Source of the DNA: Candidatus Saccharimonadota bacterium
GTDB lineage: Bacteria > Patescibacteriota > Saccharimonadia > Saccharimonadales > Saccharimonadaceae
DNA: 41,640 bases
NCBI GenBank assembly: GCA_009778675.1
Contig: WRFU01000001.1
Coordinates: 64,797-106,436 of the forward strand
Reading direction: 5' to 3'
The translations under genes were made by a program, and so were the position numbers. Positions within the stretch are counted from its first letter, which is position 1, and the number at the start of each line of letters is the position of its first letter. Below are positions 15,344 to 31,095 of the stretch, piece after piece. Under the pieces are notes generated by a model, which was not told where the DNA came from, made no database searches, and worked only from the letters and a program-made list of their open reading frames with translations.

Positions 15344-16546
15344 ATGGCCAAAACAAAAAAACATATTCTGACCAGACGCTTTTGGCGGTCAGTTAAAAGT
15401 GATGAACTGGCACGCATTTACGTTAGCTGGATGATTCGGAGTCTGGCGATAAGTCTAGTTGGTATATTTGTGCCGATTTTTATGTTAAAACTCGGTTATG
15501 GCTTCATGGATATTGCTTGGTTGCTGGTATGGTATTTTATTCCACGAGCCTTGGGCACAGATTATTTGTTTGGTAAATTGATGACCAAACTGGGGGCTCA
15601 TAAGACTATGAGCTTAGGGTTTATAACCCAAGCTTTAAGCTTGGGCTTGTTTGCTACGCTAGGCAATATATCTTGGCCGCTGTGGCTGCTAGGGGCTATT
15701 TATGGCACTTCTTCGCAGCTAGTATATCTACCGTTTCACTATGCTTTTGCTGCTTTTCACCGGCGTCATTTAGCCGGTAGCGAACTGGGTAACATCCGTG
15801 TTATCGAAAGGGTAGGTAGTGTACTAGGCCCAGTCGTAGGTGGGCTGATTGCGATGTTGTTTGGTGGACAATATATTTTTGCGGTTGGTTTTGTGCTGCT
15901 CATGGTGTCCGGTGTGCCACTACTATTAGCCCGCGAAGTATCGACTAGACAGCAAAATCTAACCATAAAATCGCTGATATTGCCGGGCGTGAGCCGTGAT
16001 TTAATATCTTTAGCCGGTTTGGGTATCAATGGAGTGGCTAGTTCGTCGGTGTGGGCGTTATATTTGGGCATGTTTGTGTTGGCTCGTGATATGGCCTACA
16101 TAAATTTAGGTGTACTGCAGTCGTTATCGGTAGTTGTGGCGATTGCCGTGGCTTATGCGATTGGCCGGTTTACGGATAAAAAAATCGGCCGTACGCTATT
16201 GCGGATTGGCACGACGCTTAATGCGTTGTTTAATTTTTTAAGGATTTTTGTAACAAAATACTTGATGGCGCTAGGGTTAAATATCGCTTACGAAGCGGCT
16301 TATACCGCTATCGATATACCCTATAATAAAGGTTACTATGCCAGCGCTGATGACCGCGATGACCGCCGTTTGGCCTATTTGGTCTTAACTTGCTGGTTTG
16401 ACGCTTTAACTAAAGGCGCGCTGTGGTTGATAATTATTTTAGTCGCGTTAGTTACAGGTTCGAAAGCTGCGTTATTAGCCGGTTTTGTAATTGGGGCTTT
16501 GGTAACATTACTAACTACAACTGAGCGCTTTGAAGCTTTAGATTAA
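15344..16546 (+). CDS. MFS-type transporter
   Basis: The 400-residue protein consists of about a dozen hydrophobic helices separated by short basic loops, typical of major facilitator transporters. FTDKKIGRTLL in the second half resembles the inter-helix loop motif of the family. The substrate cannot be told. The short upstream sequence has TATTAT (15330-15335) eight bases before the ATG and AGG at 15336-15338. Its stop codon lies within the left end of the inverted-repeat element at 16545-16708. Neighbour ddl is divergent, so a link to cell-wall precursors is only a guess. Confidence 0.75.
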   Translation: MAKTKKHILTRRFWRSVKSDELARIYVSWMIRSLAISLVGIFVPIFMLKLGYGFMDIAWLLVWYFIPRALGTDYLFGKLMTKLGAHKTMSLGFITQALSLGLFATLGNISWPLWLLGAIYGTSSQLVYLPFHYAFAAFHRRHLAGSELGNIRVIERVGSVLGPVVGGLIAMLFGGQYIFAVGFVLLMVSGVPLLLAREVSTRQQNLTIKSLILPGVSRDLISLAGLGINGVASSSVWALYLGMFVLARDMAYINLGVLQSLSVVVAIAVAYAIGRFTDKKIGRTLLRIGTTLNALFNFLRIFVTKYLMALGLNIAYEAAYTAIDIPYNKGYYASADDRDDRRLAYLVLTCWFDALTKGALWLIIILVALVTGSKAALLAGFVIGALVTLLTTTERFEALD

Positions 16547-16708
16547 AAATACTAACGGACTTTTTTATCGTCCATAAATTACAAAAACCTCATACATTGG
16601 TACTCCGGCAGAACCGTCCTACAGGACGAACCTGTCGGGTGCGTCAAGAATATAGATTTTTGAAATTTAAGGTAATAACAAACGATAAAAAAGTCCGTTA
16701 GTATTTTT
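16545..16708. repeat. 164-bp element with perfect 27-bp terminal inverted repeats
   Basis: The arms 16545-16571 and 16682-16708 are exact reverse complements (each has AACGGACTTTTTTATCG or its complement). The 110-bp core folds further. CAAAAACCT (16582-16590) can pair with AGATTTTTG (16634-16642) with one mismatch. CCGGCAG pairs with CTGTCGG around the apical hairpin CGTCC-TACA-GGACG. TTAA occurs at both outer edges (16543-16546, 16708-16711), a possible target duplication. It is non-coding. It could be a MITE-like mobile repeat, a large hairpin terminator for the MFS gene, or a structured RNA. Confidence 0.8.
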
Positions 16709-16721
16709 TAACCCAACTATA

Positions 16722-16757: not shown

Positions 16758-17024
16758 ATGATTACAAAAGAAGATAAATCTAAGGCTGTAGCCGATTTAG
16801 CCAAACATAAAACAGATGTTGGTTCACCAGAGGTTCAAATCTCGATTTTGACCAAACGTATCAAAGAAGTTACCGAACATATGAAAGTCCACAAGCACGA
16901 CTTTATGGCGCGCCGTGGTTTGGTGCAAATGGTCGGTCAACGCAAAAAACTGCTTAAATATCTAAGCCAAACTAATTTCGATAGTTACAAAAAAACTTTA
17001 GAAAAGCTTGGTTTACGTAAATAA
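16758..17024 (+). CDS. rpsO: 30S ribosomal protein S15
   Basis: S15 is a primary 16S rRNA-binding protein. The product matches the family along its 88 residues, with ITKEDKSKAVADLAKHKTD, GSPEVQISILTKRI and HDFMARRGLVQMVGQRKKLL. The ATG at 16758 gives the standard S15 N-terminus and length. A possible TTG start at 16722 would add 12 residues and lies in the -35 box, so it is rejected. It is separated from pnp, its usual partner, by one surface-protein gene. Confidence 0.96.
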   Translation: MITKEDKSKAVADLAKHKTDVGSPEVQISILTKRIKEVTEHMKVHKHDFMARRGLVQMVGQRKKLLKYLSQTNFDSYKKTLEKLGLRK

Positions 17025-17038
17025 TTCTTACCGAGTGC

Positions 17039-17069
17039 TTGTATTCTCCTCATGGGGGGGGGGTATAAT
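17039..17069 (+). promoter_or_regulatory. Promoter with a G10 tract in its spacer, possibly phase-variable
   Basis: TATAAT (17064-17069) is directly preceded by ten G (17054-17063). The best -35 candidate, TTGTAT (17039-17044), is then 19 bases away, while eight G would give the ideal 17. Length changes in such tracts switch promoter strength in known phase-variable genes, for example porA of Neisseria. The -35 is only a 3 of 6 match, so its identity is uncertain. Confidence 0.6.
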
Positions 17070-17121
17070 AGAGGTAAGAGTGTAAAAATATGAATTCTGC
17101 GAGAGAAAGTCTTACTCAGTT

Positions 17122-19464
17122 TTGCATCTACACAAAAAATTGCCTATTAGTTTTATCGCTTGCCTTGCTGTTGTTCTAGCGGCCGGCTTATATTTGATAC
17201 AGACTCGTAGTGCTATTATGGCAGCACCGCCAGCAACTATTACTAATTGGATCCACATTGCACCTAATAACATTGGCACTGTCACTGTAGATTACCAGTC
17301 CGAAACAGCTTTTACTGTTACGGGTTTAAATGGCAGTTCCGACCCAGTTAATGACGTAGTTTTCGATAGTACTACAACTGGCATTCAACTTGATGCTGGT
17401 TCTGGAACGTACAGTCTAGTTGTTGATGGTCGAGACTATCAGATTACTGTGCCGCTACAAGTATATGCAGCTGGTATTGCGTTGACTACTAGTTCTGCTT
17501 CGCCGGTGGCGATAATTGACCAAGCCAACGTGACAATGACGGTAGATGGCAATAATACGTTTACGGCCACTGGCGGTGGTAATGCCGGAATTAACGTGCC
17601 TGGCGGTTGGTTGCCAGATAACACGCTGACTATAACCTCTGATGCTGCTAGCCAGGGTAGCCTGACGGCAACTGGCGGTAACGCTCATATCGGGGCTTAT
17701 GGTGATGCCATGTGTACCGGTGCTGGTATTGGTGGTAGTAACCAAACCTGTCTAGCGGGTAATGTTGTCGGGCAGTCAGCTGGAACGATAAATATTACTG
17801 GTTACGTAAAAGTGGCAGCTCATGGCGGTGATTATGACCCTGGTATGGATGAGGTTTGGGGCAGTACTGTGTCAATTGGCGGTGGAGGCGCAGCTAGCTG
17901 CCAGCTAAATAACGTAACGATTTTGGGTGGTGATGGCGGTTACATTTCAGTCAGCGGCCATGCCACAGTTTATGCCCCAGACGGCATTGGCGGCGGTATT
18001 ATAAATTGGTGCTATAGCGGTGGTAATCCTATTGCTGTAAAATCTGGCGCTGGCCCGACGGCTAATATTAGCGGGCAGGCTTTTGTGATAACCAATAATA
18101 TCGGTTATGGACTCTGTACCTCAGATGATAGTTTTTGTCCTATTAGCTTTGCTGGTGCGGTTAGCCCAAGTATAACTATAATTGGTGGTTCAGTGTACTC
18201 ACTATCAGATAGTAGTATCGGCTTTTCCAGTGGATCAAGGTATTGGTTTTTAGACAAAGCGCCGACCAATGGTAACACGTTAGTATATCCGTTATATATT
18301 CCAACCGTTCTAGGACCGTCTAGCGTTAGCACGGTTAATACTACCATTGATTTTTCTACCGCTAACCCGAGTACCAATTATCAAGTTAATACTTTAACAC
18401 CTGGTCAGCAAAGCTGGTTTAGTACGCAGGGCTATACTTTCCCAGCGACCTATACTGCTGTGCCATGGCTGCCTGCTAATAGTCCAATTGGCATAGTTTA
18501 TAGTGGCGTCCAACTAACTTCACTGGCGGATGATACGGTATTGACTATCACTAGCTGGGCTGATCAGCGCCCAGTTTATCCGATATCTGCTACGGCGTTA
18601 GGTAGCTACTTTAATCATTTGTATTCGAGCGCACCAATTACAGCCACTAACCCTACCGACCAAACCGTCAAATCTGGTAGCAATGTCAGTTTTAGTTCAA
18701 CTATTGCTAATACAGCTGGTTTTTCACCAGCTTATGGCACACCGACTTATCAGTGGCAAGTCAGTACCGATGATGGTATGACGTGGAGTAATGTAGTCAA
18801 CGAAGTCAGTATCACTTTAAATCTGACCAATGTCCAGCCTGCCATGAGTGGTAATATGTATCGTTTACTGGTGCTAACACCAAACGTAGTTAATACGGGA
18901 CCTGGGCTTAATGGCACTGGTGTTTCAGGCGGTGTGCCTGTTATCACCACTTCACCCGCTACCCTCACTGTCACTAGCCAATATATCACCCTAACTTCAT
19001 CTAACAACGTTAATATTAACCTTAACCCAGTTTCTAGCCCACTAGGCAGTACAGCAAGTAACTTGAGCGTTAATACTAACGTGCCTAACGGCTATAGTTT
19101 ATCTATATCGATGTCTGGCACTGACACTAGGCTGACTGACGGCTCAGGGCATTACTTAAACTCCACCACTGGTATATTTACTGCCCCATCAATTTTAGGT
19201 GCTAATACCTGGGGCTTTGCTATGAATAGCTCAGCGGCAGCTGCTGGCAATGGATTTGATGCTAGCTACGCCACACCAGTACCGGCTGGTACTGCTCGAT
19301 TTGCTGGTGTACCAGCTAGTACATCACCACTAACTATTAGTACTACGAATATGGCTAACGAGACTGGGGATAGCTTTAATATCTACTATGCTGCTAATGC
19401 CGATATAACCATGCCAGCCGGAACTTACACTGGAACAGTGTTGTATACAGTAGTAGGCAATTAG
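17122..19464 (+). CDS. Large secreted/surface protein with Ig-like and C-terminal beta domains
   Basis: About 780 residues. After a basic start, the hydrophobic ISFIACLAVVLAAGLYLI forms a signal peptide or anchor. Residues about 40-430 are Gly/Thr/Asn-rich with repeated short strands, like a beta-helix or carbohydrate-binding surface protein. An Ig-like domain follows near 500-600 (TYQWQVSTDDGMTWSNV). The C-terminal domain ends in ITMPAGTYTGTVLYTVVGN, a tail style shared by other CPR surface proteins. The start is uncertain. The frame has no ATG, and the TTG at 17122 has only a weak purine-rich site (GAGAGAAAG) 13 bases upstream. An ATG at 17090 is in another frame and would join if the A6 run at 17134-17139 had seven A. 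The ligand is unknown. Confidence 0.7.
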   Translation: MHLHKKLPISFIACLAVVLAAGLYLIQTRSAIMAAPPATITNWIHIAPNNIGTVTVDYQSETAFTVTGLNGSSDPVNDVVFDSTTTGIQLDAGSGTYSLVVDGRDYQITVPLQVYAAGIALTTSSASPVAIIDQANVTMTVDGNNTFTATGGGNAGINVPGGWLPDNTLTITSDAASQGSLTATGGNAHIGAYGDAMCTGAGIGGSNQTCLAGNVVGQSAGTINITGYVKVAAHGGDYDPGMDEVWGSTVSIGGGGAASCQLNNVTILGGDGGYISVSGHATVYAPDGIGGGIINWCYSGGNPIAVKSGAGPTANISGQAFVITNNIGYGLCTSDDSFCPISFAGAVSPSITIIGGSVYSLSDSSIGFSSGSRYWFLDKAPTNGNTLVYPLYIPTVLGPSSVSTVNTTIDFSTANPSTNYQVNTLTPGQQSWFSTQGYTFPATYTAVPWLPANSPIGIVYSGVQLTSLADDTVLTITSWADQRPVYPISATALGSYFNHLYSSAPITATNPTDQTVKSGSNVSFSSTIANTAGFSPAYGTPTYQWQVSTDDGMTWSNVVNEVSITLNLTNVQPAMSGNMYRLLVLTPNVVNTGPGLNGTGVSGGVPVITTSPATLTVTSQYITLTSSNNVNINLNPVSSPLGSTASNLSVNTNVPNGYSLSISMSGTDTRLTDGSGHYLNSTTGIFTAPSILGANTWGFAMNSSAAAAGNGFDASYATPVPAGTARFAGVPASTSPLTISTTNMANETGDSFNIYYAANADITMPAGTYTGTVLYTVVGN

Positions 19465-30049: not shown

Positions 30050-30271
30050 ATGCAGATCATTAATCTTTCTGGTAATCGACAAGAAGTCGGGATTAAGCTA
30101 GGTGAACTATATAAACAAGTGCATCGTGAATTAACGCCAGCCATAGATCAAGTTACGCTAAAAAAACAAATTGCACTGTATCGTAAATTTTACCCAGGAC
30201 TATTAGAAGAAATCAACGGGATTGCTAGGGGGGGGGCTTTAATGTTGAAGAATTACTGTTCGCTAGCATAG
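30050..30271 (+). pseudogene. C45-type acyltransferase/peptidase, N-terminal part (out of frame at a G9 tract)
   Basis: The first 62 or so residues match the start of the peptidase C45 / acyl-CoA:6-aminopenicillanate acyltransferase family, with RQEVGIKLGELYK and the conserved LLEEINGIARGG. After the nine-G run (30228-30236) the frame goes astray and stops at 30271. With ten or seven G the reading continues as INGIARGGGFNVEELLF, the expected family sequence. The gene is therefore one reading frame broken by run length. The promoter with leaderless spacing is intact. Confidence 0.72.
30228..30236 (+). repeat. G9 homopolymer at the frame break
   Basis: Nine consecutive G lie within the codons for Ala-Arg-Gly-Gly. 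The gene is out of frame with nine, in frame with ten or seven. Such tracts are classical slipped-strand switches, and also typical places for sequencing error. Confidence 0.7.
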
Positions 30272-31095
30272 TAGGTGAAGCGATTGCTTCTAAACGGCCA
30301 AAACATACCAGTAACACCGAAGCTTGTACTATATTTGGTGTCCGTGACACAACTGGTCGTATCATAATAGGCCGGAATTATGACTGGATTCCGCAAGCCC
30401 GCGAAGTTTTTCAGGTCTACAGAGTTGATATTAAAGGCTGTCATAAGTTTATCGCTGTTAGTGACGAAAACGTCTGGAATCGTCGTTATACATCAAGTAA
30501 GTGGTGGAATTTTATGCCAGAAGATTATATTAACGACCAAGGGCTTTTTATTGGTCTGACTTATGCCCATAATCCTGCTGCAAGTTATGGGTTAACGCCA
30601 AGCCATATTATGCGATTAATTGCCGAAAAATGTACTACTGTGTCGCAAGCGTTAAAGATTTTTCAAAAAGTACCAGTTTGTTACGCTAAAAACTTTTTTA
30701 TTGCCGATAAGCACGGCGCAATGGCAGTAGTTGAACATGCCGCCGCACATCAATATCAAGTGTTACAACCAAATGCCAATGTTTTGATCCACACTAATCA
30801 TTACTTAGCGCCACGTTTGGTAAGCCATGATCAAGTTTTAATAGAGCATCCGACTCACACGACTTATTTACGTTATTACGAAGCTTTGCGCGGGATTAAT
30901 CGTTGTCTGGAACGTGATGGTCAATTTACACGCAGTGATGCGATGGCAATTTTGCGTCAATCAAATTATGTTTATACCCAAGATTTACCCAGATTTGCAA
31001 CGATTTGGTCGCTAGCGCTGGACTTAGGTGACGCTTGTTATGACTTGCGTTTCGATACTTTGACAGGTGAAAAGTCAGTACGACTAGAGGTTTAG
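30238..31095 (+). pseudogene. C45-type acyltransferase/peptidase, main catalytic part
   Basis: This open frame of 285 codons carries the Ntn-hydrolase part of the C45/AAT family. It includes NTEACTIFGVRDTTG, in which the Cys is the likely autoprocessing nucleophile, GRNYDWIPQAREV, the segment near GLFIGLTYAHNPA, and VLIHTNHYL. It has no start codon of its own until the ATG at 30514, which would leave out the nucleophile, so independent translation should be inactive. It depends on frame restoration at the G9 tract. No signal peptide is seen, so it would act in the cytoplasm on an unknown amide substrate. It converges on ychF with a 4-base overlap. Confidence 0.72.

Follow-up and report, generated by a model that had tools for sequence, protein, structure and literature searches.

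A G10 tract in a promoter spacer as a candidate phase-variation switch of a secreted surface protein in Saccharibacteria

In Neisseria meningitidis, the porA promoter carries a poly-G tract between its -35 and -10 boxes, and the length of the tract sets the spacer and hence transcription (van der Ende 1995, as cited in PMC5084427 and PMC7864442). The tp0126 gene of Treponema pallidum, which encodes an OmpW homolog, likewise has poly-G between the two boxes and is transcribed best at a spacing of 17 (PMC7864442). A promoter homopolymer also controls a surface protein in the cases of opc (N. meningitidis) and tprL (T. pallidum) (PMC7864442), but there the tract overlaps the -35 or the -10 without setting the spacer, whereas the tract described here does set it. 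Repeat-based variation in a CPR bacterium is represented by Gracilibacterium, where a coding repeat in a hypervariable PTD-repeat gene alters protein length (PMC6851277), but this repeat is neither in a promoter nor a homopolymer. It was the only case that our search of the phase variation literature on Saccharibacteria, Patescibacteria and the CPR returned, with subscription papers mostly outside the search. The first-pass annotation of the DNA considered here knew of no described case in Saccharibacteria, and none was found in the literature searched either.

The promoter lies on the forward strand of a 41,640-nucleotide stretch of DNA (the window), between rpsO (stop codon at 17022-17024) and a gene for a 780-residue protein, with pnp next. 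A -35 box, TTGTAT (17039-17044), is followed by a nine-base segment, TCTCCTCAT (17045-17053), nine being the commonest length in the family. Then come the G10 tract, which is the proposed length switch (17054-17063; read off the sequence and supported by run statistics), and a TATAAT -10 box (17064-17069; recognized from the sequence and the family pattern) that abuts its 3' end. The spacer is thus 9 + 10 = 19 bases, and the usual promoter scan with spacers of 16-18 omits this promoter because of that length. The positions and spacing first given for these elements are exact to the base. As in porA and tp0126, a pure homopolymer of at least 8 bases stands between the two boxes. The -10 is perfect; the -35 is weak at this site, sharing just 3 of its 6 bases with TTGACA, and strong across the class of promoters described below. 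The caveat that had been attached to this box is therefore upheld, yet TTGTAT fits CTTGYATT, the usual -35 of genes that share the leader of this transcript, one tract-less gene among them. Switching of a reading frame by the tract at 17054-17063 was ruled out, as the surrounding open frames are short. Just 5' of rpsO, about 110 bases lie between the arms of an inverted repeat, each about 26 bases long (AAAAATACTAACGGACTTTTTTATCG and its reverse complement, at ~16544-16571 and ~16683-16712). The arms may represent a MITE or a pair of terminators; an Rfam scan of the window gave no matches.

The conserved leader bears on whether this TATAAT is used. Its start, AAGAGTGT (17076-17083), begins 6 bases past the window -10 and coincides with the predicted transcription start region, the start site itself being inferred; a second motif, TGCGAGAGAAAGT (17098-17110), is common to other secreted-protein genes. 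The leader AAGAGTGT...GCGAGAGAAAG stands 6-9 bases past the -10 in genes with a tract as well as in those without, which puts the transcription start at the position expected from TATAAT and supports, on comparative grounds, the window TATAAT as a real -10. Genes of the source genome and of genome G039 have AAGAGTGTAAA...GCGAGAGAAAG in common; as a 5' leader, AAGAGTGTAAA-N-GCGAGAGAAAG is found on large secreted-protein mRNAs of two genera (window 17076-17110; loci L033, L034, L146, L153, L168, L201, L205 and L206). No unusual folding and no stable fold were found for the leader RNA.

The G10 tract in this promoter is not a product of chance. The source genome (825 kb, 39 contigs) holds about 25 distinct G9-11 tracts where about 0.2 are expected, and the window has two G runs of at least 8 bases, giving five overlapping hits compared with a mean of 0.35 and a maximum of 2 in shuffled sequences. 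In 244 kb sampled from the source genome, in part from stretches picked for their tracts, G/C runs of length 5, 6, 7, 8, 9, 10 and 11 numbered 104, 11, 1, 1, 11, 10 and 1. This spectrum is bimodal with a gap at 7-8, and in the same sample no A/T run went beyond 8. Over 101.6 kb of contig C1, taken without selection, four runs of at least 9 were found against 0.025 expected from a log-linear fit; for runs of at least 8 the figures were 4 and 0.16.

Judged by its architecture, the window site is one member of a whole class. Elsewhere in the source genome, G9-10 tracts lie in promoter-like spacers ahead of genes for a paralog of the window protein (C4:39774), two membrane proteins (C5:5837 and C5:32813), a 771-residue TIG-domain protein that shares the C-terminal domain of the window protein (C10:4367) and a secreted RCC1/TIG protein (C29:3897), and one more lies at C22:6338. 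A retron-type reverse transcriptase gene (L150 4119-5895) has G10 in its promoter-like spacer (C30:4119, TTGACT-6-G10-2-TTTAAT); about 470 bases separate this tract from the ATG, and Rfam gave no retron RNA ahead of the gene. G10 and G11 also occur in two similar sequences at contig ends, the end of C6 (L148 10052) and the start of C19 (L154 36), which suggests that the assembly broke there on tracts that were repeated or variable.

In the family, the pattern G8TATNNT occurs at about 123 places by row tally, in 50 of 295 genomes and 22 of 61 genera, compared with 9 for the reversed-pattern control; in 356 genomes from elsewhere in the phylum, the counts were 36 vs 11. C8TATNNT occurs only 12 times in the family genomes (control, 2), so the run is one of G on the non-template strand. 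This bias of G over C (~123 vs 12) is not explained by slippage alone. At 87 of 114 distinct sites a TTG lies 3-10 bases ahead of the tract, and at 39 it lies exactly nine bases ahead, where the background is about 2.6 per position; TTGACA is the commonest hexamer at the nine-base sites (17 of 39). The -10 boxes are chiefly TATAAT (33) and TATACT (24), tract lengths run from G8 to G15 with G9 and G10 most frequent, and total spacers are 18-21 in most sequenced states. The tract-less TATAAT sites of the source genome have merely a modest TTG excess at 17, and the -35 boxes of that genome are therefore poorly defined, which weighs against the switch reading set out below.

The large protein noted downstream in the first reading is confirmed, its export being inferred from sequence. 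It has 780 residues, a TTG start (17122-19464, forward strand), an N-terminal hydrophobic segment and paralogs in the genome, one of them at 45% over the full length. Its C-terminal domain (residues 601-780; 18922-19461) is widespread in the family and is predicted to be an Ig-like beta sandwich. The full-length AlphaFold model was poor (mean pLDDT 41.5), so only this domain was used structurally. Its model (pLDDT 81) resembles TLP-1, Csu, type 1 pilus and TasA-like fibre subunits with Z of 5-7, a predicted likeness that is suggestive only, with Z of 7 at best. SCPU was matched by 3 of 27 relatives of the domain (best 1.6e-4) and not by the window domain itself. A cell-surface location is inferred from the hydrophobic segment and the fibre-subunit-like domain. 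Across the class, exported proteins and type IV prepilins are over-represented among the products: an N-terminal hydrophobic segment is present in 36 of 80 products of tract promoters with a -35, compared with 42 of 198 neighbours (Fisher p = 1e-4). Type IV prepilins account for seven of the 80. These prepilin genes stand behind G8-G12 promoters in related genomes (L177, L203, L208, L212, L238, L240 and L241). Several have their ATG 6-10 bases past the -10, and their mRNAs are probably leaderless.

Orthologs and paralogs differ in tract length between conserved flanks. In five sister species, the promoter of a secreted-protein gene consists of TTGACA, nine conserved bases and G11, G12, G9, G10 or G11, followed by TATTAT or TAATAT; the genome with the G10 promoter holds a second, near-identical copy with G11. 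One pair (L280 and L281) is identical at 15 of 15 positions upstream of the tract and at 19 of 20 downstream, with G12 vs G9. An hhalign comparison (probability 97.6) relates the C-terminal domain of this secreted protein to the one in the window protein. Paralogous promoters within single genomes read G10/G12/G13 and G10/G15. Tract-free homologs have spacers of 17, 17, 17, 17, 17 and 18, so nine bases plus G8 restore the tract-free 17; the initial proposal that the loss of two G from the window tract would give 17 thus matches five of six such homologs. For the window locus itself, the genomes compared, with a single one from its genus, contained no ortholog that differs in tract length. Many relatives have unrelated genes in the rpsO-pnp interval, so no counterpart of the surface gene was found at this position. 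For a second gene, a pure tract, interrupted tracts and tract-free forms with spacers of 15-17 were seen, which by comparison looks like the birth and locking of a switch. The interrupted tracts at orthologous promoters (L319-L322) are G6AG5 and, in fixed form with a spacer of 16 in three species, G6AGGA, which is likely a locked switch. As comparisons between species, the ortholog differences show evolutionary lability and provide no measured switching rate.

The optimal distance between -35 and -10 boxes is 17. We propose that the promoter is of the sigma-70 type and that its G10 tract acts as a switch by slipped-strand mispairing, a reading in which we have high though not complete confidence; switching within the population and an effect on transcription are inferred. 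During replication, the pure G run would gain or lose bases, with a changed distance between the boxes as the result. Nine bases plus G8 would give the optimal 17 and a strong ON state, G9 would be intermediate and the sequenced G10, with its spacer of 19, weak or OFF; G7 (spacer 16) may be active too. This ON/OFF assignment of tract lengths is inferred; for a dependence of transcription on tract length, the 17-base spacers of the tract-free homologs lend indirect support. The population would then be a mix of cells with and without the secreted surface protein. The MutS_V domain (PF00488) is missing from 100 of 101 family genomes, the source genome included, in a search that detected the domain in 11 of 14 control genomes; as far as domain content can tell, slippage would be permitted, with no MutS-dependent repair found. 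Because the G-run design recurs in related species with differing lengths, random switching of surface proteins is very probable. The recurrence, and the length differences between fixed flanks, bear out the earlier suggestion of a candidate phase switch, with variation within a population and an effect on transcription not shown.

The bias towards G on the non-template strand (123 vs 12), which slippage alone does not demand, and the predominance of G9 and G10 would also suit a fixed spacer element that provides rigidity or a contact for RNA polymerase and whose length is not used for switching. We consider this unlikely: such an element would hold its length, whereas orthologs and duplicates within one genome differ by 1-5 G between conserved flanks, homologs without a tract function with 17-base spacers, and tracts are found in coding frames too, dividing them. 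Alternatively, the tract might act chiefly by displacing a regulator site or upstream contact and not through spacer length, a mode suggested for tprL, opc and nadA with their poly-G or repeat tracts, and a second factor could indeed be involved since most sequenced spacers (18-21) exceed the textbook optimum. It is improbable, however, given that the tract lies between the boxes and touches the -10 in nearly all cases and that nine bases plus G8 equal exactly the 17 of the tract-free homologs.

The end of rpsO is only 15 bases ahead of the -35, and no terminator was detected between rpsO and the surface gene, so read-through may allow expression even in the weak state. This leaves room for a relic, a formerly variable tract that is now unused while the gene is served by rpsO read-through; but the leader and the -10 are conserved, the tract is still a pure G10 and locked tracts elsewhere (L319-L322) are interrupted, and we regard a relic as very improbable. 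Chance, or a sequencing or assembly artefact such as poly-G calls from two-colour chemistry, might be raised on the ground that the genomes are mostly metagenome assemblies without reads. We give it almost no credence in view of the count over the reversed control (123 vs 9), the fixed position of the tracts relative to TTGACA and their presence in many independent assemblies. A slippage switch acting through the spacer remains our preferred explanation.

Further tracts of the source genome lie inside reading frames, some preserving and others splitting the frame. A G9 run at window positions 30228-30236 divides an acyl-CoA:6-APA acyltransferase-like gene (30050-31092, PF03417) between two frames, with the ATG at 30050 out of frame with the AAT domain (PF03417, 2e-23), and looks like a coding phase switch in its OFF state. 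At C17:1496 (L027/L277), G9 divides a reverse transcriptase gene between two frames, with one half matching RVT_1 8-93 and the other the adjoining 117-203. Near it is a 197-base repeat (L277 3029-3225 and 3733-3929, 85%), which was rejected as a template/variable repeat pair: its mismatches lack A-specificity, and the repeat copies part of a der-like GTPase gene. This partial duplication of the start of the GTPase gene surrounds an inserted reading frame of 139 residues and looks like a target duplication by a mobile element. We lean towards, without being sure of, a genome-wide phasome in the Saccharibacteria of this family, in which G tracts, on the non-template strand of promoter spacers and within reading frames, would together control the switching of surface proteins, type IV pilins and reverse transcriptases. 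If so, each episymbiont cell would get its own surface state, and perhaps its own defence state, without regulators, and MutS loss would favour this.

Saccharibacteria live on other bacteria. A role of the window switch in host attachment, host range or phage evasion is inferred. If surface proteins are switched at random, this would account for the heterogeneous attachment of cells in clonal cultures. In TM7x, type IV pili matter for host binding (PMC12206443), and in related species of the present set pilin genes follow G-tract promoters. The window switch most likely works like porA and tp0126; the sequence features of those systems are met, and population variation and transcription are inferred. 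With porA it shares poly-G in the promoter spacer of a gene for a surface protein, the surface location being inferred here, and it differs in phylum, in protein, in the many such promoters per genome and in a tract that abuts the -10. Tract length sets transcription in porA, whereas here that effect is inferred only. With tp0126 it shares poly-G between the boxes and 17 as the best spacing, here predicted and without expression data, but its host lineage and its product are different. The switch would carry a strategy of animal pathogens over to bacteria parasitising bacteria: the mechanism is already known, and its use and scale in Saccharibacteria appear to be new.
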